From positions 1 to 39,804 of the forward strand of contig CAJXNJ010000011.1 of assembly GCA_913057145.1 (NCBI GenBank): a stretch of 39,804 nucleotides of DNA. The letters are read 5' to 3'. Positions 6,266 to 33,351 of the stretch are shown here, piece after piece (the first letter of the stretch is position 1; each line of letters opens with the position of its first letter). A program made the position numbers and the translations under genes. Origin of the DNA: an uncultured Ectothiorhodospiraceae bacterium (GTDB taxonomy: Bacteria > Pseudomonadota > Gammaproteobacteria > Nitrococcales > Nitrococcaceae). The notes beneath the pieces were generated by a model. That model had not been told where the DNA came from. It was given only the letters and a program-made list of their open reading frames with translations, and made no database searches.

Positions 6266-7366
6266 GTGACAACACCAAGCGAACAGTATCAGGCCGATCT
6301 TCGCGACGAGCGGATGCAGGAGGATGCCTCGCAGCTTGCCGCGGTAACGGCCCTGGATGCGCTCTACCAGCGTTTGTTGAGCCCCGAGGAGACACCTTCG
6401 GGGCTGCGTGGTTGGTGGCAGCGCCGCCGCGGGTCTGCGGTGCCGGCCCCCAAGGGGCTTTATCTCTGGGGGGGTGTCGGCCGGGGCAAGACCTATCTCA
6501 TGGATCTGTTCTACGAATGCCTGCCATCGCAGGTGGGCAAGCGTCGGTCGCATTTCCACCGCTTCATGCGCTCAGCCCATGAGCGCCTGCGAGTCCTGCG
6601 TAATGAACCCGACCCACTGCGCCTGCTCGCCACTGAGTGGGCAAAAGAAACGCGGGTGCTCTGCTTTGATGAATTCTTTGTCAGCGATATCGCCGATGCG
6701 ATGATCCTCTCGGGGCTTTTGCATGGTTTGATCGAGGAGGGGGTGACGCTGATCGCAACCTCCAATATTCAGCCGAGCGGGCTTTATGAAGGGGGGCTTC
6801 AGCGCGAGCGCTTCCTCCCGGCGATCGATCTTCTTGAAACCCACACTCGGGTATTGAATGTGGATGGCGGGATCGATTATCGCCTGCGCCTGCTCTCTCA
6901 GGCCCCGATTTATCATTTCCCGGCCGATGCCAGGGCCGAGACGAAACTTGCCGAGTCCTTCGAGAAGCTCTGTCCGGAACGCGAGCATGCCGAGCCCATT
7001 CTTGAGATCAATCATCGCGAGATTGTGGCGAGGGGCGTGGGCGATGGTGTCCTTTGGGCGGGTTTCGATGCGCTTTGTGAGGGGCCACGGAGTCAGGATG
7101 ATTATGTTGAGCTTGCCCGGCAGTTTCATACCGTCTTGATTTCGGCGGTACCCATTCTCGATCGTGATCGCGAAGATGCCGCTCGCCGGTTTATTGCGCT
7201 CGTGGATGAGTTCTACGATCGCGGCGTTAAATTGATCATCTCGGCCATGGCGGATATCGAGTGGTTGTATCGCGGCTCGCGCAATCGATTTGAATTCAAG
7301 CGCACCGCTTCAAGGCTGCGGGAGATGCAGTCTCACGAGTATCTGGCCCTGCCGCATCGGCCCTGA
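6266..7366 (+). CDS. zapE: Cell division protein ZapE (AFG1-like ATPase)
   Basis: This 366-aa P-loop ATPase has Walker A GGVGRGKT (about residues 69-76), the Walker B-like CFDEFFV (about 133-139) and the family stretch RGVKLIISA near the C-terminus. ZapE acts at the Z-ring in gammaproteobacteria, and mitochondrial AFG1 is the homologue. Start is GTG at 6266, about 10 bp after GGGGAT. The gene stands alone and is followed by the DnaA-box region. Confidence 0.93.
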   Translation: MTTPSEQYQADLRDERMQEDASQLAAVTALDALYQRLLSPEETPSGLRGWWQRRRGSAVPAPKGLYLWGGVGRGKTYLMDLFYECLPSQVGKRRSHFHRFMRSAHERLRVLRNEPDPLRLLATEWAKETRVLCFDEFFVSDIADAMILSGLLHGLIEEGVTLIATSNIQPSGLYEGGLQRERFLPAIDLLETHTRVLNVDGGIDYRLRLLSQAPIYHFPADARAETKLAESFEKLCPEREHAEPILEINHREIVARGVGDGVLWAGFDALCEGPRSQDDYVELARQFHTVLISAVPILDRDREDAARRFIALVDEFYDRGVKLIISAMADIEWLYRGSRNRFEFKRTASRLREMQSHEYLALPHRP

Positions 7367-9579: not shown

Positions 9580-10730
9580 GCCCCCACCTCCGCAGCAACC
9601 CGCTGCATGTATGTGCCAAAGACGTCGATGTAGCGCGGTACCGGCATGAGAAAAGCGTCATGGCCGTGATCGGCACGGATCTCGGCGTAGCTCACGCGTT
9701 TGTTGGTATCAAGCAGGGCACGGACAATCTCGCGGCTCGCTGAGGGGGGGAAACGCCAGTCACTGGTAAACGAGGCCACCAGAAACTGCGCCTTGACCTG
9801 CTTGAGCGCGCGCTCAAGGTCGCCCCCGAACTTCGCCGCCGGGTCGAAATAATCCAGAGCCTTGGTCATCAGCAGGTAGGTGTTGGCGTCAAACCGGTCG
9901 ACAAAAGACTGTCCCTGATGGCGCAGATAACTCTCGACCTCAAACTCCACATCGTAGTGGAAGCCAAAATCATCTTCTTCGCCGCGACGGTCGCGGCCGA
10001 ACTTCGCCCCCATCGCCGCTTCCGAGAGATAGGTGATATGCCCGAGCATGCGCGCAAGCATCAGCCCTGTCCGCGGACGGCTGCCCGCGACGGCGTAACG
10101 GCCTTCATGGAAATCCGGATCGGAGCGAATGGCCTGCCGGGCCACTTCATTGAAGGCGATATTCTGGGCCGAGAGCCGGGGCGCTGCGGCAATGACAACG
10201 GCATGCCGGATCCGCTCGGGCAGGTCGATGGCCCACTGCAGCGCCTGCATTCCGCCAAGACTGCCGCCGGCCACCGCCGCCCAACGCTCGACCCCCAGAT
10301 AATCGGCAAGCCGTGCCTGGCTTCTCACCCAGTCGCGCACCGTGACCATGGGGAAATCCGCCCCATAGGGCTTGCCGGTATCCGGGTTGTCGCTGACCGG
10401 GCCGGTGGAGCCATGACAGCCCCCGATGTTGTTGCTGCAGACAATAAAAAAGCGATTGGTATCGAGTGGCTTGCCGGGGCCGATGCAGGCTTCCCACCAG
10501 CCTGGCTTACGCTCACCGTGCTCGTAATAACCGGCTGCATGGTGATTACCTGAGAGTGCATGGCAGACCAGAATGGCGTTACTTGCCTCGGCGTTCAGCT
10601 CGCCATAAGTCTCATAGGCGAGCTCGAAACCCGGCAGGCTGTGCCCGGATTCCAGTTCAAGCGCTTCATCAAAACGCACATGGGCGGGTGTCACCAGCCC
10701 GACAGAGTCTTCCGGAAATTGCTCGCTCAT
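9576..10730 (-). CDS. metX: Homoserine O-acyltransferase, probably succinyl type (MetX)
   Basis: This 384-aa alpha/beta-hydrolase has the nucleophile S157 in [13 protein letters not shown] and the catalytic His in [11 protein letters not shown] near the C-terminus. It activates homoserine as the first committed step of methionine synthesis. In gammaproteobacteria a MetX paired with MetW is usually a homoserine succinyltransferase, so succinyl-CoA use is inferred from context rather than from residues I can assign. It is 2 bp from yggT and overlaps metW by 4 bp. Confidence 0.93.
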
Positions 10731-19910: not shown

Positions 19911-21707
19911 TTAGAGGCTGTTCAAATAACGTCGCCACGAGCGCATATGCGAAACATCCTCGGCGTCACCTGTTAGGGCGCATCCCTCGCACAGGAACCC
20001 GGTCACGCTGGTGCCATCGGCCAGATGCACTCGTCCAAGGCCCAGTGGTGCGGGAATGGTTGAGAGAAACTCGCCGAATATGCTGCGTGGTAATGACCAT
20101 ATTTCGAGTTCGATTGCGGTGCCACCTTCATTGACGCGAACCAGGCCGGGCCTTTGCGGTGGGCCGCCGGGCAGTGCATAGAGACGATAGCTGGCTGCTG
20201 TGCAGGTTTTGGTTAGTAGGCGTCCGCCGCGCTCGATGAGTTCATGATTGAGGGGAAGCCCGGTCATATGTGCACCGCAAACTGCCAATGGTAGCCGGTG
20301 CGCATTGTCTTCTAGGTGGGATGATTCTTGAATGGGTACTGATCGTTCACTGGTCCCCAGCGGTAGCGCAAGATGTTGTTGCAAGCGCCCAGCCAGTCTC
20401 AGCAAAGGCTGATCAAGGAACGTGGGTGCAAACAATGTGACACCGAATGGCAGACCATTGGGTGCAAATCCGACGGGTGTGGCAACAGCGCTCAGGTCGA
20501 GCAAGTTCATGAAATTGGTATATAGCCCGAGCTGGCTGTTTATACCGATCGGATCTGCCTCGACGGCTGCCAGCGTGGGTAGAGTCGGCGCCGTCGGAGT
20601 GACGATACAATCTAGCTCTGACCAAACAGCGTCTGTCCTGCGGCGCAGTTCTGCCAAGCGGTGTTCCGCGGCAAAAAGATCGCATGCAAGCGGTATTTTG
20701 CCTTCCGCAATAATCTGTCGGGTTATCGGCAGCAGCGCCTCGGGCTGCGACTCGATGAAATCACGTATGGCACTGTAGCGCTCAGCCACCCAAGGCCCTT
20801 CATAAAGTAGACGCGCGGTTTCGAAAAATGGGGCGAAGTTTATAAATTCGGCTTTACCACCCAGTGCCTCAAGTCCAGCAACGGCCGCGTCAAAAGTAGC
20901 TCTGTCGAAAGGCGCCTCGATGTTCTGAAGCCCCGCTTCTGTTGGTACCCCAAAACTGAAGTCATCGATGGGCAGGTCGGCTTGCAACGGCAGGGGTGAC
21001 TGTGGGGGGCGGGACTGCGCATCCAAAGGATCAAATGCCTGTGCTACCGCGAATACACGTTGCACGTCATCCGCGCAAAGCCCAAATATGCTCACGCAGT
21101 CGAGGCTGCGGCATGCAGGAACCACGCCGCGGGTGCTGATTAGGCCGCGGCTTGGTTTAAGGCCTACCAAGTTATTGAAGGCTGCAGGAACGCGTCCCGA
21201 CCCGGCGGTATCCGTGCCAAGTGAGAAGCTGACTTGCCCAAGCGCTACGGCAACGGCCGACCCCGAACTGGAGCCACCCGATACGCGTTCGGGATCAAAG
21301 GCATTACGACAGGGTCCGTAGGGTGATCGAGCGCCTACCAGCCCCGTAGCAAATTGATCAAGGTTGGTTTTCCCCATCGGTACAGCGCCGGCTTCAATTA
21401 AGCGCTGGACTACCGTAGCTGAAGCCTCAGGCTGGTAGCGGTAATCGGGGCACCCAGCGGTGGTTGGCATGCCCGCGACGTCGATATTGTCCTTGACCGC
21501 GAATGGAATGCCATAAAGCGGCAGCGTTGTTGGGTCTATCTGTTCGAGCCGGGCAATGTGTGACTCGAGCAGCATGTCATCTATTACTGTAATCCAGGCA
21601 TTATGGAGATCGCGCTCGAGAATGGTTTTGCGTTTACGGCTCAGATATTCGCGTGGCGTTCTGGCACCGGAGCGATAAGCCGCCAACTCTTCGGCGATGG
21701 TGTCCAT
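19911..21707 (-). CDS. atzF: Allophanate hydrolase
   Basis: This 598-aa protein has an N-terminal amidase-signature domain and a C-terminal domain typical of full-length AtzF/DUR2 proteins. The Ser-Ser-Lys triad is visible: K72 in AVKDNID, a cis-Ser in SGGSSSGS (143-150) and the nucleophile S170 in DTAGSGR. It hydrolyses allophanate to ammonia and CO2, the last step of guanidine (or urea) assimilation by the carboxylase route. The start shares one base with the carboxylase stop (TAATG). Its stop abuts the MFS fragment, marking the left edge of the inserted operon. Confidence 0.95.
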   Translation of the reverse strand: MDTIAEELAAYRSGARTPREYLSRKRKTILERDLHNAWITVIDDMLLESHIARLEQIDPTTLPLYGIPFAVKDNIDVAGMPTTAGCPDYRYQPEASATVVQRLIEAGAVPMGKTNLDQFATGLVGARSPYGPCRNAFDPERVSGGSSSGSAVAVALGQVSFSLGTDTAGSGRVPAAFNNLVGLKPSRGLISTRGVVPACRSLDCVSIFGLCADDVQRVFAVAQAFDPLDAQSRPPQSPLPLQADLPIDDFSFGVPTEAGLQNIEAPFDRATFDAAVAGLEALGGKAEFINFAPFFETARLLYEGPWVAERYSAIRDFIESQPEALLPITRQIIAEGKIPLACDLFAAEHRLAELRRRTDAVWSELDCIVTPTAPTLPTLAAVEADPIGINSQLGLYTNFMNLLDLSAVATPVGFAPNGLPFGVTLFAPTFLDQPLLRLAGRLQQHLALPLGTSERSVPIQESSHLEDNAHRLPLAVCGAHMTGLPLNHELIERGGRLLTKTCTAASYRLYALPGGPPQRPGLVRVNEGGTAIELEIWSLPRSIFGEFLSTIPAPLGLGRVHLADGTSVTGFLCEGCALTGDAEDVSHMRSWRRYLNSL

Positions 21708-24700
21708 TAATCAGTCTCCCATTCAATGATGGCCAAAGGCTGACCCGGTGTGACCGGGCGACCGGGCTTACACAGCATCCGCTTGATTACCCCCGCCTGT
21801 GGTGCGTGGACGGGGATTTCCATTTTCATTGATTCGATGACCAGCAGTAGGGCATCAGAAGTAACGTGAGCACCTTCGCCAACCGCAATGGTCCAAATGC
21901 TGCCATGGACATCGGCTTCAAGGACTCCCTCGCCTTCATTTAGCTCAAGGCCTTCGGCGACCGGCGTCGGTGGCTCGACCTCGGTTGTAAAGTCAGCTTG
22001 ACCGTTCGCGAGCCAACGTTGCCGCTCAGCTTCGAACGCCGTTTGCTGGCGCTCTTTGAATGCCGCGATGCTAGCCTCGTTATCCGCAACAAACCTTTGA
22101 TAACGCGCCAGCGAGAACGTAGTCTCTTCGATATTGAGCTGCAGGCCACCACTCGGGAATGCGGCGCGCATATCCATCAGCTCTGACTCGCTAACCTCAT
22201 AGAAGCGGATCTGGTCAAAAAACCTAAGCAACCAGGGTTTTTGGAACTCGGACGTTGTGCGATAGCGATTCCAGATTTGTAGCGTGCGGCCAACAAACTG
22301 ATATCCACCTGGGCCTTCCATGCCATAGATGCACATGTATGATCCCCCTATTCCCACCGCATTCTCCGGTGTCCAGGTTCGGGCTGGGTTGTATTTGGTG
22401 GTAACTAGCCGATGTCGGGGGTCGACTGGGGTCGCAAGCGGGGCAGATAGGTAAACATCACCTAGTCCCATGACCAGATAGGAAGCATCAAAGACAATGC
22501 GCCGCAGCTCGATCTCATCCTTGAGCCCATTGATGCGACGGATAAATTCAATATTGTCGGGGCACCAGGGTGCATCAGGGCGCACCGACTGCATGTATTT
22601 CTCGGTAGCGAGTCGTGTCTGGCTATCATTCCAGGCCAGCGGCAGGTGAATAATGCGTGATGGCAGTTCCTCGCTATCTAAATTGATCAGCTCAGCTTCA
22701 GACTGCTCCAGGATCTCTAGCAGCCGTTCGACCGGAAGCTGACCCGGGTCAAAGTGGATCTGCAGGCTTCGAACGCCGGGTGTCATCTCGATGACCCCAG
22801 GGATAGCAAGTTCAGCGAGCCATTCCAGTAGTGCCTGCACGCGAAAGCGCAGAGCAAGGTCCAGCACGATGGGACCGTATTCGACCAGTAGGTAGCGATC
22901 GCCGGCCGCGCGATAGGTCACTTCGGGACGTCGCGACGAGGCCTCGTGGTGCGAGATAATTGGGCTGGCAGGCGCCGTTGGCTTGAGTTCGGGCCGCGGC
23001 GTCGGCGGCTGCAGGGTGGCAATCATTGCTGTTTGCTCTGCGGCCGACTGTCGAGCTTCGTCCCGACTGACTACCTGAAAGCGGACAGTATCGCCGGGCC
23101 GCAGCTGACCAAGCTTCCATAGATCGGCGTCGATGATAGTGGCGGGACAGACAAATCCGCCCAAGCTGGGGCCGTCCGGCCCCAGAATAACCGGCATGTC
23201 CCCAGTGAAGTCGACGCTGCCAATGGCATAAGCGTTGTCATGGATATTGGATGGATGCAGTCCTGCTTCTCCACCGTCGTCGCGTGCCCATTCCGGTTTG
23301 GGGCCGATTAGGCGAACGCCCGTACGGCTTGAGTTGTAGTGAACTTCCCATTCAGCGTCAAAAAATTTTTTGATGTAGGCGGGAGTGAAAAAATCCGGCG
23401 CTCCGTGGGGGCCGGACATTGCGCGTAGAGTCCAGAATCTGCGGATCTTCGGAATCAGCTCGGTGGGCAGGCTTCGTCCCCGCTGCGCTGATACCTGTGT
23501 CGATGAAGGTTTGCTTTCGGCAGGCCGCAGTACGTCGCCGGCCATAAGTGCTCTGCCGCCATGGCCGCCTAGTCGGCCAAGCGCAAAGGTTGCACGGCTA
23601 CCCATATGCAGCGGCACATCCAGTCCGCCTTCGACCAGTAGATAGGCCCGGATGCCCGCGTCGCCGGCGCCGCCAATGTTTAAGGTTTTGCCGGCAGCGA
23701 TGGTGAAAACTTCCCAGAAAGGCACCGGCTGACTGTCGCATGTAGCGGCCATGGGGGCTCCGGCAAGTACGATTTGGGTAGTTTCTGAGAAGCGCAGGCT
23801 GGGCCCCTGAGCTGTGATTTCAAGGCCGCTAGCCGTCTCGGGGTTCCCCAGTAGGCGATTGCCCAAGCGAAAGGATAGATTGTCCATCGGTCCCGAGGGC
23901 GGTAAACCGATATCCCAGTAGCCCACGCGACCCGGCCAGTCCTGGATTGTTGTCAAGGTACCCGCAGTAATCACATCAATTCGGGCCTCGTCATCCCGAA
24001 ATTCAGCCAAACTCTGGGTAATAGCCTCACCGTTTTGTAATGCCGACATGCGCGTAATAGCCCGGAGATAAGCCAGGTTGGTCATCACACCATCGATACG
24101 CATGTCTGTAAGCGCCCGGCCAAGTCGATCTAGTGCCGTGCTCCGATCTTCAGCATGGACGATGACCTTAGCCAGCATCGGATCGTAGTAGTGCGTTACC
24201 TCGAGTCCGCGTTCAATCCATGTGTCTACTCGGCAGTCCTTTGGCAGTATTGCCTCGGTGATAAGCCCAGTGGCAGGCTGAAAATCCTTACCCGGATCTT
24301 CAGCATAAACTCGCGCCTGAATGGAATGACCGACGGGTGGCTTGGGCCGGCGTTCAACCAGATCGTTAAGTTCGCCGGCGGCCGCGTCCAGCATCCAGCT
24401 GACAAGATCGATACCTGTCACGCTTTCGGTAACGCCGTGCTCGACCTGTAAGCGGGTATTTACCTCCAAAAAGTAGAAATCATTCGTCTCGGCATCGAGA
24501 AGGAACTCTACGGTTCCGGCCGAGCGGTAATTCACGCTTCGACCCAGTCGCTCTGCGGCCTCCAGCAAGTTGGCTCGGGTGGCGGCCCTGAGGTTGGGCG
24601 CGGGTGTCTCTTCGATGACTTTCTGGTGGCGGCGTTGCAGCGAGCAGTCACGCTCGCCAAGTGCAATGACTTCGCCGTGGCCATCACCAAAGATTTGAAC

Positions 24701-25327
24701 TTCGATATGACGTGCCTGCTTGATGTATTTCTCGAGAAAAATTCCGTTGTTAGAAAAATTGTTTTGTGACAGGCGCTGCACAGAGTCAAAGGCAATTTTC
24801 AATTCGGCGGCGTTTTCGCAAAGCTGCATGCCGATCCCGCCTCCTCCGGCAGTACTCTTTAGCATGACCGGATATCCGATTTCTCTGGCGTGTTTGAGTG
24901 CCGCTTCAACATCGACCAGAAGCTCTGTACCTGGCAGCAGCGGAACCTGATTGGCCATGGCCAAGGCACGGGCAGTGTGCTTAAGGCCGAATTCACGTAT
25001 CTGGGTGGGAGTGGGGCCGATAAAGACGATCCCCGCTGCTTCGCAAGCTTCGGCGAAATCGGCATTTTCGGAGAGAAAACCATAGCCTGGGTGAATGGCC
25101 TCGGCGCCATATTCACGCGCGGTGGCAAGAATGCGGGCGGCATCCAGATACGACTCGCTTGCTCTCGATGGTCCGATGGCGACGGCCTCATCGGCCTCGC
25201 GGGCATGCGGTGAAGCGCGATCGGCTTCGGAGAAGATCGCGAGGCTTCTGATGCCGCGCTCTTTTAGCGTGCGCTCAATGCGGCAGGCAATGGCGCCACG
25301 ATTGGCGATGAGTACCTTGCTGAACAT
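21707..25327 (-). CDS. Biotin-dependent guanidine carboxylase (urea carboxylase family)
   Basis: This 1206-aa multidomain enzyme consists of biotin carboxylase (about 1-450, FSKVLIANRGAIACRI and STAGGGGIGMQ), the paired KipA/KipI-like carboxyltransferase halves (about 460-1010), a linker and a biotinyl domain with K1168 in ESMKMEIP. By similarity it is urea carboxylase. The ykkC riboswitch, the two DUF1989 genes and the ABC transporter in the same operon match systems shown to carboxylate guanidine, so guanidine is the probable substrate (established family knowledge applied by context). The ATG at 25327 is chosen over a TTG at 25369. Confidence 0.9.
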   Translation of the reverse strand: MFSKVLIANRGAIACRIERTLKERGIRSLAIFSEADRASPHAREADEAVAIGPSRASESYLDAARILATAREYGAEAIHPGYGFLSENADFAEACEAAGIVFIGPTPTQIREFGLKHTARALAMANQVPLLPGTELLVDVEAALKHAREIGYPVMLKSTAGGGGIGMQLCENAAELKIAFDSVQRLSQNNFSNNGIFLEKYIKQARHIEVQIFGDGHGEVIALGERDCSLQRRHQKVIEETPAPNLRAATRANLLEAAERLGRSVNYRSAGTVEFLLDAETNDFYFLEVNTRLQVEHGVTESVTGIDLVSWMLDAAAGELNDLVERRPKPPVGHSIQARVYAEDPGKDFQPATGLITEAILPKDCRVDTWIERGLEVTHYYDPMLAKVIVHAEDRSTALDRLGRALTDMRIDGVMTNLAYLRAITRMSALQNGEAITQSLAEFRDDEARIDVITAGTLTTIQDWPGRVGYWDIGLPPSGPMDNLSFRLGNRLLGNPETASGLEITAQGPSLRFSETTQIVLAGAPMAATCDSQPVPFWEVFTIAAGKTLNIGGAGDAGIRAYLLVEGGLDVPLHMGSRATFALGRLGGHGGRALMAGDVLRPAESKPSSTQVSAQRGRSLPTELIPKIRRFWTLRAMSGPHGAPDFFTPAYIKKFFDAEWEVHYNSSRTGVRLIGPKPEWARDDGGEAGLHPSNIHDNAYAIGSVDFTGDMPVILGPDGPSLGGFVCPATIIDADLWKLGQLRPGDTVRFQVVSRDEARQSAAEQTAMIATLQPPTPRPELKPTAPASPIISHHEASSRRPEVTYRAAGDRYLLVEYGPIVLDLALRFRVQALLEWLAELAIPGVIEMTPGVRSLQIHFDPGQLPVERLLEILEQSEAELINLDSEELPSRIIHLPLAWNDSQTRLATEKYMQSVRPDAPWCPDNIEFIRRINGLKDEIELRRIVFDASYLVMGLGDVYLSAPLATPVDPRHRLVTTKYNPARTWTPENAVGIGGSYMCIYGMEGPGGYQFVGRTLQIWNRYRTTSEFQKPWLLRFFDQIRFYEVSESELMDMRAAFPSGGLQLNIEETTFSLARYQRFVADNEASIAAFKERQQTAFEAERQRWLANGQADFTTEVEPPTPVAEGLELNEGEGVLEADVHGSIWTIAVGEGAHVTSDALLLVIESMKMEIPVHAPQAGVIKRMLCKPGRPVTPGQPLAIIEWETD

Positions 25328-25346
25328 GTGTGATCCGGCTAATGGA

Positions 25347-25395
25347 GGCGGGTCGTCCCGCCGCTGCAACAGGCTCGCTAGGGTCGTCCCTAGCG
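25347..25395 (-). repeat. Tandem stem-loops with shared GGGACGACCC core
   Basis: The carboxylase leader has two perfect hairpins on the minus strand, 13 nt apart. The upstream one (25376-25395) is CGCTAGGG-ACGA-CCCTAGCG and the downstream one (25347-25362) is GGCGGG-ACGA-CCCGCC. The GGG-ACGA-CCC tip is identical while the lower stems differ but still pair, which argues for a selected RNA structure or repeat element. No U-run follows, so simple termination is unlikely. Confidence 0.7.
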
Positions 25396-25402
25396 GTCGG
25401 GG

Positions 25403-26062
25403 TCATTCCCAGATAATCATCTGAAGCGGTGTCGGGTTGAAGCCGCTACATGGGTTGTTGAGCTGCGGGCAGTTCGAAACCAGCGCGATCACATCCATCT
25501 CGGCGCGCATCTCTACGTACTTACCCGGCCCGGATATGCCGTCCTCGAATGAAAGTCCTCCTTCGGGTGTGACCGGGACATTCATAAAGAAGTTAATGTT
25601 ACTTACTACATCGCGCTTGGTCAGACCGTAATGGCTTTCCTGGATCGCGTGCAAAAAGTTGTCGCGGCAGGAATGCATCGACTTTTTCTCTAGTGCATAG
25701 CGCATTTGGTTTGCCTCGGCTGAGCAAGCGCCGCCCAGTGTGTCATGGCGGCCGCAGGTGTCCGCGGTAATGGTCAACATAACGTTACCTCGGTTTGAGA
25801 CAAGCGGTGAGCCAGTGGTCAGGTAAACATTGTTTTGACGCTGTGTAGTGTCAATGGCGCTGTAACGCTCGCCAGTCGGATCAGCGAGGCTGTAGAACAG
25901 CGTGTCGGCGGCTTCATTACCCTCTACATCTACGATGCGCAGCGTTTGTCCGCGGCTAAGTTCGGCGATCCACCAATCGCCTGCGAGGACGGTTTCACGG
26001 CGGATTGCGTTTTTAGGGTCGAGCGTGCTGGGTTGGAGGTTTATTGCAGGCACGGCATTCAC
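25403..26062 (-). CDS. Carboxyguanidine deiminase subunit (CgdA/CgdB type, DUF1989)
   Basis: This 219-aa protein belongs to the family long named urea carboxylase-associated protein. Conserved segments include [41 protein letters not shown] and [17 protein letters not shown]; the Cys and His residues could bind metal. In characterised guanidine pathways two such paralogues form CgdAB, which converts carboxyguanidine to allophanate and ammonia. Which of the two genes corresponds to CgdA or CgdB I cannot decide. Its start overlaps the paralogue's stop by 4 bp. Confidence 0.88.
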
Positions 26063-26796
26063 TCCTGGCAGGTGGCGATCAATGTATTGGCATAGGCGCG
26101 GGCATTTTCCGGGGCATGGTGGACGCAGAAGTCATCATCTGCCACAGGGGCTGATCGAAAGAGGGATACTTCTACTGCTCCGGGTTGGTAATCCGGGCCG
26201 GACGCCATGGGGTGGGGTGCCGTCGTCAGTACGACAAGGCTGTCGCTCTCAGCCCGCAGGTCAACGCTTGCGCCAGGGTGGCTGTGATTAGCGTGATAGT
26301 GCAGGTCACCGTCATCGTCCACGCTGACTTTTTGGAAAAAATTAACCGGAATGACAAGGTCGCGTGGCCCAAGTCCCCATTTTGCCAGTTCAATCAGAAA
26401 AAGCTCGCGTCCGTCGCGGTAGAAGTCGTTCCAATGATCCTGAAAATTGGCCGTGCCATAACGTGAACGAATCAGCTCAGCATCACTAATGCCGCCAATC
26501 GGATCATGCCAGCCCACGGTGTCCTCAATAATGGAAAACATCGCCCGGCCCATGTCCGAGAACAGCATGTTGCCATGGGATAAGCGGCTGACATGCTGCC
26601 CTTTGAGCGTATCAGCCATATTGTAGCGTTCCAGTGGATTGCTGGGGTTATAGGCCAGGAATGAAGCGTTAGCCCGTCCATCGATGTCGGTCAGGCGCAA
26701 AGTGTAGCCACGTCTGACAATCATCGACCAGTAGCGGGCACCTGGCACCATCTCACGGTGCACGATACGGTTTTGTGCAATGGGTGTGGCGTGCAT
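26059..26796 (-). CDS. Carboxyguanidine deiminase subunit, second paralogue (DUF1989)
   Basis: This 245-aa DUF1989 protein is the longer partner of the downstream gene. Shared landmarks are [43 protein letters not shown] and [15 protein letters not shown]. The two are expected to form a heteromeric deiminase acting between the carboxylase and allophanate hydrolase. The ATG at 26796 has GAGGAG 8 nt upstream and overlaps the ATPase stop as TGATG. An in-frame TTG one codon earlier is less likely. Confidence 0.88.
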
Positions 26797-27590
26797 CAAT
26801 TGCTCTCCTCATCGTGGTTGGATGGAAGCCCTTCAAGCATGGTGGCCGGCAAACGATCGGTTGAACGGGCACCATGCTGTAACGGGATATCGTAGGTAAT
26901 CGTTGCTCCGTACGCGTTGGGCGCATGCGGGTCGACCCGGGTCTTATCGAACACCAACATTCGGGTGCCTAGATCAAAACCTTCTTTCAGGTCGTGGGTG
27001 ACCATAAAAACAGTGATCTCAAGCCGCTCCCAGAGCTCGAGAATCAGTGCATGCATGTCTTTGCGGATGCCAGGGTCGAGTGCGCCGAAAGGTTCGTCCA
27101 AGAGTAGAATGCGGGGGTTCTTCATCAACGCCTGTGCAATGGCGAGGCGCTGTTGCATGCCGCCCGAGAGTTGGCTGGGGTATTTTTTGGCCGCGCTGCC
27201 AAGCCCTACGCGTTCCAGCATTTCATGTGCCCTTACCAGAGCTTCGCGGCGCGCCCTCCCTAAAAGTCGGGCAGTGATCGCGGCCTGTTCCAGTTCCTCG
27301 GCCAGTAACACATTCCCAAGAGCGGTAAGGTGGGGAAATACCGAGTACTTCTGGAACACGACGCCTCTGTCGGGTCCCGGTTCTTCCGGCATGGGACGGC
27401 CATCCAGCAGCAACTCGCCCCGGGTCGGTGTCTCTTCGCCAAGGAGCATGCGCAAAAACGTGCTTTTACCGCACCCCGAGGCCCCCACTACCGTGACAAA
27501 GTCGCCTGCTGCAACATTTAGGTGAATATCTTCAAGAACGACGTCTCGGCCGTATTCTTTCCAAAGGCCTCTGGCTTCGATAACGCTCAT
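26796..27590 (-). CDS. ABC transporter ATP-binding protein, probably guanidine uptake
   Basis: This 264-aa ATPase of the nitrate/sulfonate/taurine (SsuB/TauB) family has Walker A GASGCGKST, signature LSGGMQQR and Walker B ILLLDEPFGALD. Position in the riboswitch-controlled operon suggests it energises guanidine import. Automatic labels such as nitrate or taurine transporter would be misleading. It overlaps the permease stop by 4 bp and the downstream deiminase start by 1 bp. Confidence 0.92.
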   Translation of the reverse strand: MSVIEARGLWKEYGRDVVLEDIHLNVAAGDFVTVVGASGCGKSTFLRMLLGEETPTRGELLLDGRPMPEEPGPDRGVVFQKYSVFPHLTALGNVLLAEELEQAAITARLLGRARREALVRAHEMLERVGLGSAAKKYPSQLSGGMQQRLAIAQALMKNPRILLLDEPFGALDPGIRKDMHALILELWERLEITVFMVTHDLKEGFDLGTRMLVFDKTRVDPHAPNAYGATITYDIPLQHGARSTDRLPATMLEGLPSNHDEESN

Positions 27591-28408
27591 TTAGCCCTCC
27601 CTGTCGAATACCAAGGGAAGAACCAGTAATTAAGACGTCTGAGCAACCAATCCAGCAGAAATGCCAGCAGCGTGATCCACGCTACGTATGGGAGAATTGT
27701 CTGCATGTCTAGATAGCGTCGGACGAGAAAGATACGGTAGCCAAGCCCGTTTTCGGCGGCGATTGCCTCCGCGGCAATCAGAAAGAGCCAGGCAGCGCCC
27801 AGCGCGAGTCGGGTGGCGTCAAACAGTCGTGGCAGGGTTTGCGGAATGGCTACCCGCAGTAGGATCTGCCAAGTCGAGCCGCCCAGAGTTTGGGCCTTGA
27901 CGAACTGCTCCCCGGGAATTTCTTCCACGCGCTGCTGCAGGTCCCTTATCATAAACGGCAGGATGCCAAAGATGATCAGGACCACCTTGGACAGCTCGCC
28001 CACACCAAAAGTGATGAACAAAATGGGTAGGATCGAGAGTGGGGGAATCATGGCCAGCGCCGCCAGAAATGGCGATAGCGAGCGGCGTAGATAGGGAATC
28101 AGCCCGGTGGCCGTACCCACGATCAGCGCTAGTACCATGCTGATAGCAACCCCGGTCATCAATCGCGCCAGGCTGGCCGCCGTGTCGGCCCACAACAGAA
28201 TTTCGCCGGTGCGCCGCGAGGGCTCGGTGGCTAGGCGTACTAACGCGTCTGCCATGCTTATGAGCGAGGGCAGCAGTTTATCACCGGGGTTTTCGGCCAG
28301 CCGGGCTGTCGATGCCGTCATGTAGGCAAGCACCACCAGCGCAAACGGCAGCAGGGCTAGCACGGCTCCTAGCACCCGTCCGGGGCGTTGATTGATCAGT
28401 CGTCTCAT
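27587..28408 (-). CDS. ABC transporter permease, probably guanidine uptake
   Basis: This 273-aa inner-membrane protein has about six hydrophobic segments and the BPD_transp_1 coupling-loop region (KAQTLGGSTWQILLRVAIPQTLPRL, about residues 166-190). It is the SsuC-like partner of the ATPase. The 64-bp gap to the binding-protein gene holds a GC-rich hairpin. No good Shine-Dalgarno is visible before the ATG at 28408. Confidence 0.92.
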   Translation of the reverse strand: MRRLINQRPGRVLGAVLALLPFALVVLAYMTASTARLAENPGDKLLPSLISMADALVRLATEPSRRTGEILLWADTAASLARLMTGVAISMVLALIVGTATGLIPYLRRSLSPFLAALAMIPPLSILPILFITFGVGELSKVVLIIFGILPFMIRDLQQRVEEIPGEQFVKAQTLGGSTWQILLRVAIPQTLPRLFDATRLALGAAWLFLIAAEAIAAENGLGYRIFLVRRYLDMQTILPYVAWITLLAFLLDWLLRRLNYWFFPWYSTGRAK

Positions 28409-28428
28409 TATGTCGGATTTGCGTGACA

Positions 28429-28456
28429 GGGGGCCGGAGGCGGCTGCGCCGCCCCC
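28429..28456 (-). terminator. GC-rich intercistronic hairpin after the binding-protein gene
   Basis: GGCGGC (28439-28444), a 3-nt loop and GCCGCC (28448-28453) form a perfect stem, with an alternative longer pairing of flanking G and C runs. It lacks a U-run. Such hairpins between a solute-binding-protein gene and its permease commonly stabilise or partly terminate the transcript, giving more binding protein than permease. That role is inferred here. Confidence 0.5.
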
Positions 28457-28472
28457 AGGCTACCCATTGGCC

Positions 28473-29561
28473 CTAAAGCTCGCCCTCGGCGGCCATGCGC
28501 ATGTACTCGTCGGTAAACCGCAGTTTGACGTTGCTGGAGGCGCCTAGCACCGAACCATCGGCAAACTCGATGCCTACAAAATCGGGATTTTGGGCACTGG
28601 CTCCCAGTAGACCGCGGTCGAAGGCAAACTGGCGCACGTTGTCCATGGTGGCTCGCGGCTGGTCGCTGGTCACAAAGTCCACTGCATCCGCGGCTTTATA
28701 GAACATCTCGGTGCTATCGAGCTGCAGCTCATATCCGGCAAGATCAGTCCCCGCTGCCTCGGCCATCTCTCTGCGTGCTTCGATGCCTGTGTCGTCATCC
28801 GTCGACATATTGGCCATGATTTCGTACCAGGCACCAGCAAGAGCCATGCCTAGTTCGGGATTGGCCTCAAGTACCTCGGTGTTGAGCGCAAGGGTGTCGA
28901 TGATCTCACCGGGGATGTCCGACGAGTCAAAGACTATGTTGGCATCAGGCATGCCCCCCAGCTCGCTCAGCTGCGGGTTCCAGGTAGCTGCCGCAGTGAC
29001 ATCCGGGCTTGAAAACGCCCCTACGATGTCGGCATCCGAGGTGTTTACCACGTTCACGTCGCGTTCGGTCAGGTCGACCGACTCTAGGGCGCGGGCCAGG
29101 AGGTAGTGCGAGACCGAGAGCTCCACTAGGTTGACGCTTCGGCCTTCAATATCGGCCAGATCATCGCTCCCCTTCAGAACAACGCCGTCGTTCCCATTGG
29201 AGAAATCGCCCACAATGGCGAGCGTCGTATCCACGCCGCTGGCGGCGGGAATGGCGAGTGCGTCCATATTGGTGATGGTGACGCCATCAAACTCTCCAGC
29301 GGTATAAAGATTGATTGATTCGATGTAGTCATTGATCTGCACCACATCGATATCGATGTCGTATCGATCGGCCCATTTATTGACAATGCCTGAGCTCTCG
29401 CCGTAGCCCCAGGGCATCCAGCCCACGTAGATGCTCCAGGCAATACGGAAGCTATCGCGCTCCTGCGCAACGGCAAAGCCAGGAATGGCGAGGGTGAGCG
29501 CGACGAGCGTGGGGGTCAGGCGGCGCAGGCCGCTGCGGAAGGACTTGTTAGGACGTTTCAT
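28473..29561 (-). CDS. Periplasmic substrate-binding protein, probably guanidine-binding
   Basis: This 362-aa NMT1/SsuA-like binding protein has a Sec signal peptide (basic KRPNKSFRSGLRR start, hydrophobic stretch about 15-27, cleavage near GFAVAQ-E). The mature part begins DSFRIAWSIYVGWMPWGYG, rich in Trp and Tyr as expected for cation-pi binding of a small cation such as guanidinium, though this is suggestive only. The ATG at 29561 follows AGGAG at 29568-29572, which fixes the start. It is the first gene after the guanidine riboswitch. Confidence 0.9.
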   Translation of the reverse strand: MKRPNKSFRSGLRRLTPTLVALTLAIPGFAVAQERDSFRIAWSIYVGWMPWGYGESSGIVNKWADRYDIDIDVVQINDYIESINLYTAGEFDGVTITNMDALAIPAASGVDTTLAIVGDFSNGNDGVVLKGSDDLADIEGRSVNLVELSVSHYLLARALESVDLTERDVNVVNTSDADIVGAFSSPDVTAAATWNPQLSELGGMPDANIVFDSSDIPGEIIDTLALNTEVLEANPELGMALAGAWYEIMANMSTDDDTGIEARREMAEAAGTDLAGYELQLDSTEMFYKAADAVDFVTSDQPRATMDNVRQFAFDRGLLGASAQNPDFVGIEFADGSVLGASSNVKLRFTDEYMRMAAEGEL

Positions 29562-29596
29562 GGCCGTCTCCTGTCGATTTGGTCGGGAAATACACA

Positions 29597-29710
29597 CGGG
29601 AGGTCCTCGACGAATCTCCCGGGCTTTTGTCCCGCCGTGTAACCCCTTCAGGAGAGGTCGGATGCTCTCGGACCAGTCATCCGCAGTGCGGACCGGAACC
29701 CTAGCGTCCC
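29597..29710 (-). promoter_or_regulatory. Guanidine-I riboswitch (ykkC class)
   Basis: On the minus strand the conserved blocks of the ykkC RNA appear in order: CTAGGGTTCCG (29704-29694), GGTCCGAGAGCATCCGACC (about 29675-29657) and ACACGGCGGGACAAAAGCCC (29640-29621) followed by GGGAGA. The aptamer spans about 29615-29708. Its 3' strand CGGGAG can instead pair with CTCCCG just downstream (minus-strand stem formed by 29621-29616 and 29602-29597), a plausible expression platform. Guanidine binding should turn the operon on. It lies between the sigma-54 promoter and the first gene. Confidence 0.95.
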
Positions 29711-29785
29711 ATTACTCACCAAATTGTTGTTGCGGGTTGCCAGAGGCAGATCCGCCGCAGGGTCCCGTGTACCCAATCTATGCTG

Positions 29786-29801
29786 TGCAAAATTCCTGCC
29801 A
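29786..29801 (-). promoter_or_regulatory. Sigma-54 (RpoN) promoter of the guanidine operon
   Basis: The minus strand reads TGGCAGGAATTTTGCA. Compared with the consensus TGGCACGRNNNTTGCW it differs at one defined position and keeps the essential GG and GC with correct spacing. Transcription would start near 29775, about 65 nt before the riboswitch aptamer. No good sigma-70 pair was found in the same stretch. Confidence 0.8.
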
Positions 29802-29890: not shown

Positions 29891-29907
29891 TGCACCTTTA
29901 TGGTTCG
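29891..29907. promoter_or_regulatory. NtrC-like enhancer site
   Basis: TGCACCTTTATGGTTCG matches 11 of 13 defined positions of the NtrC dyad TGCACC-N4-TGGTGCA. It lies about 124 bp upstream of the predicted start of the sigma-54 promoter, a normal enhancer distance. It overlaps the stop codon of the MFS gene. Only one clear site was found, whereas strong NtrC enhancers often have two. Confidence 0.55.
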
Positions 29908-31115: not shown

Positions 31116-31870
31116 CCAAGGTCCCCGATCATGGTCTGGATTACAGCGAGGGCAGCGACCGGGGCTGTGTCACTGCGCAGAATCCGCGGCCCAAGCCGAA
31201 TCCGTTGCCAGCCAAGATCGGCTACCTGCTGGATCTCCCCAGGAGCAAGCCCGCCTTCCGGGCCGATCAGTGTCGCCAATTGCTCAGCGGGTTGAAGATC
31301 GCCAGCGGCCCGATCTCCTTCGGTATCGAAGATGACACCGGGCAGGCCTTCGACGGCGGCGAGCGCCTCGGTGAGGCTGCAGGCCTCATCAATGATTGGT
31401 ATGCGGTTGCGGCCACACTGCTCGCAGGCGGCAATGGCAACGGCCTGCCAGTGGCGCTGTTTTTTTGCCCAGCGTTTAGCATCCAGCCGCACGACACAGC
31501 GTTCGCTGATCACTGGAATGACGCGTGCCACACCCAGTTCGGTCGCTTTTTGCACGGAATAGTCCATGCGCTCGCCACGGCTGATGCCCTGCAGAATGGT
31601 GACAGCAATGGGGGATTCCGCTTCACGTGCCTGAAACCGCTCGATGCGGGCGGTGGCATCACGTCGGCCCAGCGATAGCAGTGTGGCGATGTGTTCACCG
31701 CCTTCACCATCAAAAAGCACAAGCCCGTCGCCTGTTTTCAGACGACGGGCCTGGATGTGTTTAACCGCACCATCGGGCAGGTCCATGACCTCCCCGATGG
31801 CCGGGATGCCTGTGACGTACAGGCGGGTGGAAGGCTCAGTAGCGATAGTGCTCTGGCTTGAAGGGGCCAT
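31112..31870 (-). CDS. rsmE: 16S rRNA (uracil-1498-N3)-methyltransferase
   Basis: This 252-aa SPOUT-class enzyme methylates U1498 of 16S rRNA. Family marks are an N-terminal PUA-like part, [22 protein letters not shown], and the SAM-knot stretch [13 protein letters not shown] with [16 protein letters not shown] at the end. The only ATG giving a full N-terminus (31870) lies 35 bp inside ahcY, so translation is probably coupled to ahcY termination. No strong Shine-Dalgarno is visible, so a different start codon is possible. Confidence 0.94.
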
Positions 31871-33248
31871 TCACCGGAACGCCAATGTAGTCGGCCTGCT
31901 CATCACGCAGCGTGGTGAGCTTGGCGCCGATCTTCTCGAGATGCAGCCGTGCCACTTCCTCATCGAGGTGCTTGGGCAGTACATAGACCTCATTGCCATA
32001 GCTGCCGTCATTATTGAACAGCGCCATCTGTGCGAGCACCTGGTTGGTGAAGCTCGCTGACATGACAAAGCTGGGATGCCCGGTGGCACAGCCCAGGTTC
32101 ACCAGACGGCCCTCGGCGAGCAGGATGATCTTCTTGCCATCAGGGAAGGTGATGTGATCCACCTGTGGCTTGATGTTCTCCCACTCGTACTGACGCAGGC
32201 TCGCGACATCGATTTCGTTGTCGAAATGGCCGATGTTGCAGACGATGGCCTCGTTTTTCATCGCCGCCATGTGGTCATGGCTGATGACCTGGTAGTTGCC
32301 AGTGGCACTGACAAAGATATCCGCCTGGCTGGCCGCCTCGTCCATGGTGACCACGCGATAACCTTCCATGGCCGCCTGCAGGGCACAGATCGGATCAATT
32401 TCGGTGACCCAGACGCTGGCGCCTAGTGCTTTCAGACTCTGGGCACAGCCCTTGCCGACATCACCATAGCCCACCACAACGGCAATCTTGCCGGCGATCA
32501 TGACATCGGTGGCCCGTTTCAGGCCATCGACCAGCGACTCGCGACAGCCGTAGAGGTTGTCGAACTTGGACTTGGTCACCGAGTCGTTCACGTTAATCGC
32601 CGGGAAGGGCAGCTCACCCTTGGCGGCCATTTCATAAAGCCGCATAACGCCGGTGGTGGTCTCTTCGGTGACACCCTGGATGGCGGCCTGCGTGCGGGCG
32701 TAAAAGCCAGGGTTCTCTTTCAGTCGCCGACGAATGGCGGCAAACAATGCGCGCTCTTCGTCACTGCCGGGGTTGTCGAGCACGGACGGGTCCTGCTCGG
32801 CCTTGGCACCCAGGGTCACGGCCATGGTCGCATCACCCCCGTCATCCAGAATCATGTTGGGGGTGCCATTCGGCCATTCCAGAATGCGGTGGGTGTACTC
32901 CCAGTACTCCTCCAGCGTCTCGCCTTTGTAGGCAAAGACCGGGGTGCCGGTCTCGGCAATGGCCGCGGCGGCGTGATCCTGAGTCGAGTAGATATTACAG
33001 CTTGCCCAACGGCATTCCGCGCCGAGTGCCTGCAGCGTCTCGATGAGGACAGCCGTCTGAATGGTCATGTGCAGGGAGCCGGCAATCCGGGCACCCTTCA
33101 GGGGTTGCTCACCGGCATACTTCTCGCGCAGGGCGATCAGGCCGGGCATTTCGGTTTCGGCAATATCGATTTCGCGACGGCCCCAGGGCGCGAGGCTCGC
33201 ATCGGCGATGATTGAGCCGCTCAGTTTTGTGTCAACGACAGCGTTCAT
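31836..33248 (-). CDS. ahcY: Adenosylhomocysteinase (SAH hydrolase)
   Basis: This 470-aa NAD-dependent enzyme splits S-adenosylhomocysteine into adenosine and homocysteine. It contains [15 protein letters not shown], the NAD motif [17 protein letters not shown] and the conserved C-terminus [10 protein letters not shown]. Length fits the longer bacterial class with the roughly 40-residue insertion. GGAG lies 7 nt before the ATG. It is preceded by a SAH riboswitch and by metK, giving both ends of the SAM cycle. Confidence 0.97.
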
Positions 33249-33270
33249 GGCTTCACTCCATGTGTTGCAG

Positions 33271-33351
33271 TCGAGCGCCGTTGTTGTTGTAGCGCGGGCA
33301 TCGAGCCTCTCCCACCGGTTGGTGAGATGCAGCGCTCCTCGACACCCGCGC
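33271..33351 (-). promoter_or_regulatory. SAH riboswitch upstream of ahcY
   Basis: The minus strand shows the SAH-riboswitch core GTCGAGGAGCGCTGCA, then GAGGCTCGA and finally AACGGCGCTC, which can pseudoknot with GAGCGCTG. The outer stem is GCGCGGG (33351-33345) with CCCGCGC (33298-33292). SAH binding activates downstream expression in this class, here ahcY and probably rsmE and the MFS gene. It occupies the 120-bp gap after metK. Confidence 0.93.

Follow-up and report, generated by a model that had tools for sequence, protein, structure and literature searches.

The operon that runs from 29561 to 19911 on the minus strand of contig CAJXNJ010000011.1, from an uncultured Ectothiorhodospiraceae bacterium (assembly GCA_913057145.1), raises the question of whether its enzymes break down urea or guanidine. 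The NCBIfam models that its products match are named 'urea carboxylase', 'urea amidolyase associated protein' (UAAP) and 'putative urea ABC transporter substrate-binding protein' (ABC, ATP-binding cassette), and an earlier note on this DNA was right in kind when it expected annotation pipelines to file the operon under urea. For the window, by which we mean the whole stretch of 39,804 nucleotides (nt) analyzed here, we propose, at a probability of roughly 85%, that these genes form a guanidine assimilation operon governed by three stacked gates. A sigma54/NtrC-type promoter would open under nitrogen limitation, a Guanidine-I leader would permit expression only when guanidine is present, and a Guanidine-II element between cgdAB and the carboxylase gene (gca) would separately license translation of the carboxylase and, through a gene overlap, of atzF. 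Guanidine would enter through the ABC transporter, the carboxylase would add a carboxyl group to it at the cost of ATP, the two DUF1989 proteins (CgdAB) would carry out a deimination to allophanate, and AtzF would convert allophanate to ammonia and CO2.

Guanidine is the best reading of the substrate because an Asp signature in the carboxylase, two guanidine riboswitches and the CgdAB pair occur together, and the genes most likely serve the uptake and breakdown of guanidine for nitrogen, a substrate preference that we predict from sequence. The carboxylase is homologous along its whole length to the urea amidolyase of Kluyveromyces lactis (PDB 5i8i, 3va7); the 5i8i alignment spans nearly the full carboxylase, and 5i8i also matches the hydrolase. 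In this alignment K. lactis Asn1330, the Asn of 'INFTGDEP' as numbered by counting along it, corresponds to Asp706 here, and K. lactis Asp1584 corresponds to Asp957. The substrate-pocket comparison that the earlier note had suggested, made at the level of sequence only, accordingly found both signature Asp residues and, at the position where a urea carboxylase would carry Asn, Asp706. To our knowledge, yeast urea amidolyase has no DUF1989 proteins or riboswitches alongside it. In its available text, PMC11410670 uses Asp at K. lactis positions 1330 and 1584 to call guanidine rather than urea carboxylases and states that the guanidine pathway requires a heteromeric carboxyguanidine deiminase; the accessible part of a review (PMC12186494) gives the same Asp/Asn rule.

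Covariance models identified both riboswitch aptamers (Table 1), each the sole match of its class in a genome of 1.6 Mb on 78 contigs that is 86% complete, where one scan scored 150 of 235 candidates. The Guanidine-I match covers all 107 model positions (E 2e-15), and the Guanidine-II match retains both hairpins with intact ACGR loops. The stretch around the latter (25307-25402) folds with a z-score of -3.56, and none of 200 shuffles was as stable. The earlier note had claimed a ykkC-class Guanidine-I riboswitch and had held that the lack of a significant covariance match would refute its proposal; two guanidine riboswitch classes were matched. The transporter, DUF1989, carboxylase and hydrolase genes that it assigned to one unit were likewise recovered on the minus strand at the coordinates given there, and its list of elements was sound as far as it went, omitting Guanidine-II and the sigma54-type promoter, which lies outside the interval it considered.

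Table 1. Features of the proposed guanidine operon in the window.
Feature	Position	Strand	Evidence
NtrC-like palindrome CGAACC-N5-GGTGCA, candidate enhancer	29891-29907	-	2 mismatches to TGCACC-N5-GGTGCA
sigma54-type -24/-12 promoter TGGCAGGAATTTTGCA	29786-29801	-	11/12 consensus positions, GG-N10-GC intact
Guanidine-I (ykkC) riboswitch aptamer	29614-29715	-	Rfam RF00442, 91.6 bits (gathering score 63)
Periplasmic binding protein of putative guanidine ABC importer	28473-29561	-	TIGR03427, 529.6 bits (cut-off 333.9)
ABC transporter permease	27587-28408	-	PF00528; best NCBIfam match TauC-like, under its cut-off
ABC transporter ATPase	26796-27590	-	PF00005
DUF1989 protein UAAP1, presumed CgdA (carboxyguanidine deiminase subunit)	26059-26799	-	TIGR03425, 316.7 bits
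DUF1989 protein UAAP2, presumed CgdB	25403-26062	-	TIGR03424, 319 bits
Guanidine-II (mini-ykkC) aptamer, operon-internal	25348-25395	-	Rfam RF01068, 47.6 bits (gathering score 32)
Predicted guanidine carboxylase (annotated urea carboxylase), ATG at 25327	21707-25327	-	TIGR02712, 1826.8 bits (cut-off 1303.85)
Allophanate hydrolase AtzF	19911-21707	-	TIGR02713, 772.7 bits, and PRK08186, over cut-off; AH_C domain PF21986

The carboxylase, both DUF1989 proteins (TIGR03425 and TIGR03424), the hydrolase and the binding protein all pass their NCBIfam cut-offs, and PF09347 is found in both DUF1989 proteins, a family that we take to be the same as COG3665. With start codons as chosen, overlaps of 1-4 bases join permease to ATPase, ATPase to the first DUF1989 gene, that gene to the second, and carboxylase to hydrolase (one base between the gca stop and the atzF start), which fits with a single transcript. 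The non-overlapping junctions are a 64-nt gap 3' of the binding-protein gene and a 75-nt gap, containing Guanidine-II, before the carboxylase. The names CgdA and CgdB follow the gene order given in the available text of PMC12508155. Separately, a GC-rich inverted repeat, seen by eye, lies in the 64-nt gap (28409-28472, minus strand) and might possibly set a high ratio of binding protein to permease.

We compared the window with the best 80 of at least 588 relatives, ranked by similarity to the window carboxylase and not a random sample. With Rfam models applied to their genomes, Guanidine-I was found upstream of gca at 34 loci, although some of these scans ran stricter filters that lose weak matches. 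Guanidine-II lies directly before gca, as in the window, in 21 relatives (position A), whereas in 10 others it precedes UAAP1 (position B); four of these 31 (L028, L029, L033 and L070) score under the Rfam gathering score, with E of 0.001 or less. The two classes occur together at 26 loci, and three further Guanidine-II elements were recognized by pattern only. The window shares its layout with relatives. On a carboxylase tree (82 rows, built by a quick method with Shimodaira-Hasegawa-like approximate likelihood ratio test [SH-aLRT] support only and with pattern-only Guanidine-II counted), most cases of position A fall in gammaproteobacteria and most of position B in alphaproteobacteria and other groups, and the Guanidine-II states need seven changes. 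In L070 the Guanidine-II match, at 7328, lies ~1.25 kb before the UAAP1 match, so another gene may sit between them.

The alternative that survives best, while still unlikely, is that Guanidine-II is a functionless relic and that translation of the carboxylase is coupled to that of UAAP2. We saw no classic ribosome-binding site from Guanidine-II to the carboxylase ATG, and two relatives of the same genus, L119 and L120, do without the element: only 2 nt separate their UAAP2 stop from the gca ATG, while the site next to gshB, a sigma54 site of 11/12 and Guanidine-I are kept (L120 has no binding-protein match). Against a relic, the hairpins and ACGR loops are intact in the window and also in the uncultured Spiribacter L003, despite differences in the linker and flank letters, and a 75-nt gap is long for coupling. 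We therefore favor a working Guanidine-II, which would uncouple gca translation from cgdAB and add a separate check for guanidine.

The four Spiribacter-type gca genes (window, L003, L119 and L120) form one clade (SH-aLRT 100) nested in a clade of 10 whose other six rows all have Guanidine-II before gca, and because of this nesting among carriers, loss of Guanidine-II in place is the simpler reading of L119 and L120. Identities between the window and these two (gca 71% and atzF 65-66% versus UAAP2 83%) had raised the suspicion of a mosaic replacement of the Guanidine-II-gca-atzF half; this was rejected, given that gca is more divergent than UAAP2 in 16 of the 16 comparisons that have both and that the tree fits Guanidine-II loss.

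The closest of the 80 relatives is L003, with 82% identity in the carboxylase, and the host appears to be a Spiribacter-like and likely halophilic organism. Of 14 genomes from the genus, 4 have a full-length carboxylase over the cut-off, and a fifth (G092) has one truncated at a contig edge. In the four full-length carriers the end of atzF falls in the gshB flank. In five other genomes gshB adjoins a major facilitator superfamily (MFS) gene (G086, G090) or an rsmE-like gene (G087, G081, G092), the genes that precede the operon in the window; in G092, where gshB adjoins the rsmE-like gene, the carboxylase copy must lie elsewhere. L106, L107 and L113 have no probe gene on that side of gshB within 1.5 kb, L109 is cut, and G088 gave no gshB match. 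The gshB-adjacent site is thus variably occupied by the operon within the genus.

The proposed first gate rests on a sigma54-type site 70 nt before Guanidine-I, the sole site of at least 11/12 in the window, scored against 12 positions that we take to be the sigma54 consensus. Upstream, the center of the NtrC-like palindrome, judged against TGCACC-N5-GGTGCA as the presumed NtrC consensus, lies ~111 nt from the -12 element (112 nt in L003). Among the relatives, sigma54 sites of at least 10/12 occur within 400 nt upstream of Guanidine-I in 27 of 39 stretches (27 of 37 without mis-mapped ones) versus 0.84 expected, and within 100 nt in 26 versus 0.21 expected, with expectations drawn from the background at these same loci, among which related ones are not independent. 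Three Guanidine-I placements are wrong or unsafe: L011_1630 and L052_4188 have no Guanidine-I letters, and L059_3169- sits within the carboxylase in antisense orientation. All three score below 10 for sigma54, which corrects the count by placement from 29/43 to 29/40; the count of 34 Guanidine-I loci is unaffected, and L011 has a second, true copy. NtrC-like sites with at most two mismatches occur in 9 of the 27 promoter-bearing stretches, the window included, versus 0.23 expected from shuffles, and the genome encodes rpoN and ntrC, both over cut-off, which is consistent with a predicted control of the operon by NtrC.

A single consensus match is by itself weak evidence, and the site might be a chance match in an operon that uses another promoter. 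We consider this improbable, given the similar position and sense-strand enrichment across Guanidine-I operons: in the 6 kb upstream of gca, 33 of these operons have 30 sense versus 3 antisense sigma54 sites, whereas 32 operons without riboswitches have 10 versus 9, which is background. The same-genus L119 and L120 also carry their sites 69 and 67 nt before Guanidine-I. In L075, three Guanidine-I aptamers lie on one strand (1569, 6972 and 20633), and each is preceded within 60 nt by a sigma54-type site of at least 10/12, so that the regulon seems to be split.

A leader copy ACACGGGA is complementary to the Guanidine-I expression platform in the window, but this pairing was dropped as a candidate when duplex energies were compared with shuffles (p 0.47). 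Across 42 stretches, two of them mis-mapped, the 60 nt before Guanidine-I are complementary to the sequence after it at p <=0.05 in 9, compared with 1 and 2 of 42 in controls. The strong cases are L022, L014, L033 and L077, and an antiterminator helix outside the aptamer is possible at some of these loci.

Several observations weigh against our proposal, besides the missing ribosome-binding site described above. Within the survey the Asp signature has no discriminating power: position 1330 holds Asp in 73 relatives, 36 of which have neither riboswitch, Asn in 2 and Cys in 5. Two Hyphomicrobium loci (L041, L042; carboxylase at 10001) have Asn at 1330 yet carry Guanidine-I and Guanidine-II in the same operon; either they contradict the published one-residue rule or they would represent a urea enzyme under guanidine control. 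The Guanidine-I region folds just modestly better than its shuffles (z -1.39, with 20 of 200 equally stable), and 12 of the 39 Guanidine-I stretches lack a sigma54 site of 10/12, two of these being mis-mapped and some cyanobacterial. No urease alpha subunit was matched in the 86%-complete genome, so urea use through the carboxylase would not be redundant. As a marker for control by riboswitches the Asp/Asn rule was dropped, since it gave no useful contrast among the 80 relatives. The five loci with Cys (motif TICFTGDMP) are Verrucomicrobia (L036, L047, L048, L053 and L054), which have no guanidine riboswitch match and have their DUF1989 genes downstream of atzF.

Another possibility is that this is a urea operon after all, in which carboxylase and AtzF act as a urea amidolyase, with the DUF1989 proteins and riboswitches as accessories guarding against guanidine that is formed or imported with urea. 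The names of the family models and the missing urease alpha subunit would suit such a route. We nevertheless regard it as quite unlikely, given Asp rather than Asn at the 1330 position, the presence of two guanidine switches, and a DUF1989 pair that supplies the heteromeric deiminase of the guanidine pathway as described in the available text of PMC11410670.

The guanidine carboxylase/CgdAB/AtzF route put forward in the earlier note is further supported by the operon of Vreelandella (Halomonas) boliviensis. According to the available text of PMC12508155, that operon likewise has Guanidine-I at its start, an ABC importer with a binding protein, cgdA/B, Guanidine-II between cgdB and gca, then gca and atzF; the gene set and order match except for two extra genes, mgdH and mgdL, which lie between gca and atzF there, whereas gca and atzF overlap in the window, which lacks this methylguanidine-extended layout. 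The same text reports that guanidine is bound by both V. boliviensis aptamers, that the operon proteins are induced on guanidine and that the layout is 'like in several other bacteria', and it names control by two riboswitch types as a matter for further study. The least probable alternative is that the operon physiologically serves a derivative of guanidine, for instance methylguanidine, and that guanidine is an intermediate, as in V. boliviensis: the V. boliviensis Guanidine-II does not tell methylguanidine from guanidine (PMC12508155, available text), the layouts are similar and the host is likely a halophile, but no mgdH or mgdL sits at the one-base gca/atzF overlap (no search for the two genes was made elsewhere in the genome).

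The Guanidine-I/ABC/cgdAB/Guanidine-II/gca/atzF layout is therefore already published; what we add are the sigma54 sites before Guanidine-I and the same-site pair with and without Guanidine-II. RpoN and NtrC do not appear in the available text of PMC12508155, where 'sigma' occurs just in a supplier name. As far as the available part of PMC11410670 goes, Pseudomonas syringae and ammonia oxidizers share with the window Asp at 1330 and 1584, carboxyguanidine deiminase, allophanate hydrolase and Guanidine-I; P. syringae also has an ABC importer, whereas ammonia oxidizers with guanidine genes have an amino acid-polyamine-organocation (APC) permease, and no internal Guanidine-II was seen in that text. 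Burkholderia cenocepacia H111 resembles the window in having an annotated urea carboxylase with a urea-carboxylase-related ABC transporter (I35_7283-7286), and this cluster is down in an ntrC mutant (I35_7286, log2 -6.0; PMC5491218); the available text reads it as urea use and contains no occurrence of 'guanidine'. Similarly, the available text of PMC12316311 predicts 102 sigma54-regulated COG3665 genes, 59% of them identified as urea carboxylase, again with no occurrence of 'guanidine'. Among the open-license papers listed, neither a title nor the opening of an abstract linked a guanidine riboswitch to NtrC, although a review of cyclic di-GMP effectors (PMC12564702) contains the words guanidine, riboswitch and NtrC; the sigma54 promoter/Guanidine-I link may already be in print elsewhere.

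Two further observations concern the genome at large. No exporter of the small multidrug resistance (SMR) type was matched in this incomplete (86%) genome. Unrelated to the guanidine operon, ahcY (31836-33248) is directly preceded by an S-adenosylhomocysteine (SAH) riboswitch (33266-33346, minus strand; RF01057, 50.1 bits), as is usual for this class.

Beyond this genome, it seems fairly probable that many proteobacterial guanidine operons place a sigma54/NtrC gate before a Guanidine-I leader and use Guanidine-II as a movable third gate before cgdA or gca, one that was lost at the same site in one Spiribacter-like sub-lineage, leaving a 2-nt translational-coupling junction. Database names would file the operon as one for urea use, whereas this small genome of halophile type most likely uses it for guanidine. 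Should the promoter result hold, the guanidine riboswitches of these operons would be a second step after a nitrogen-starvation signal rather than stand-alone sensors, so guanidine alone might not induce such operons when the medium is rich in ammonium. A natural comparison is offered by the pair that has Guanidine-II present or absent at the same site, and it makes the purpose of carrying two guanidine switches testable.

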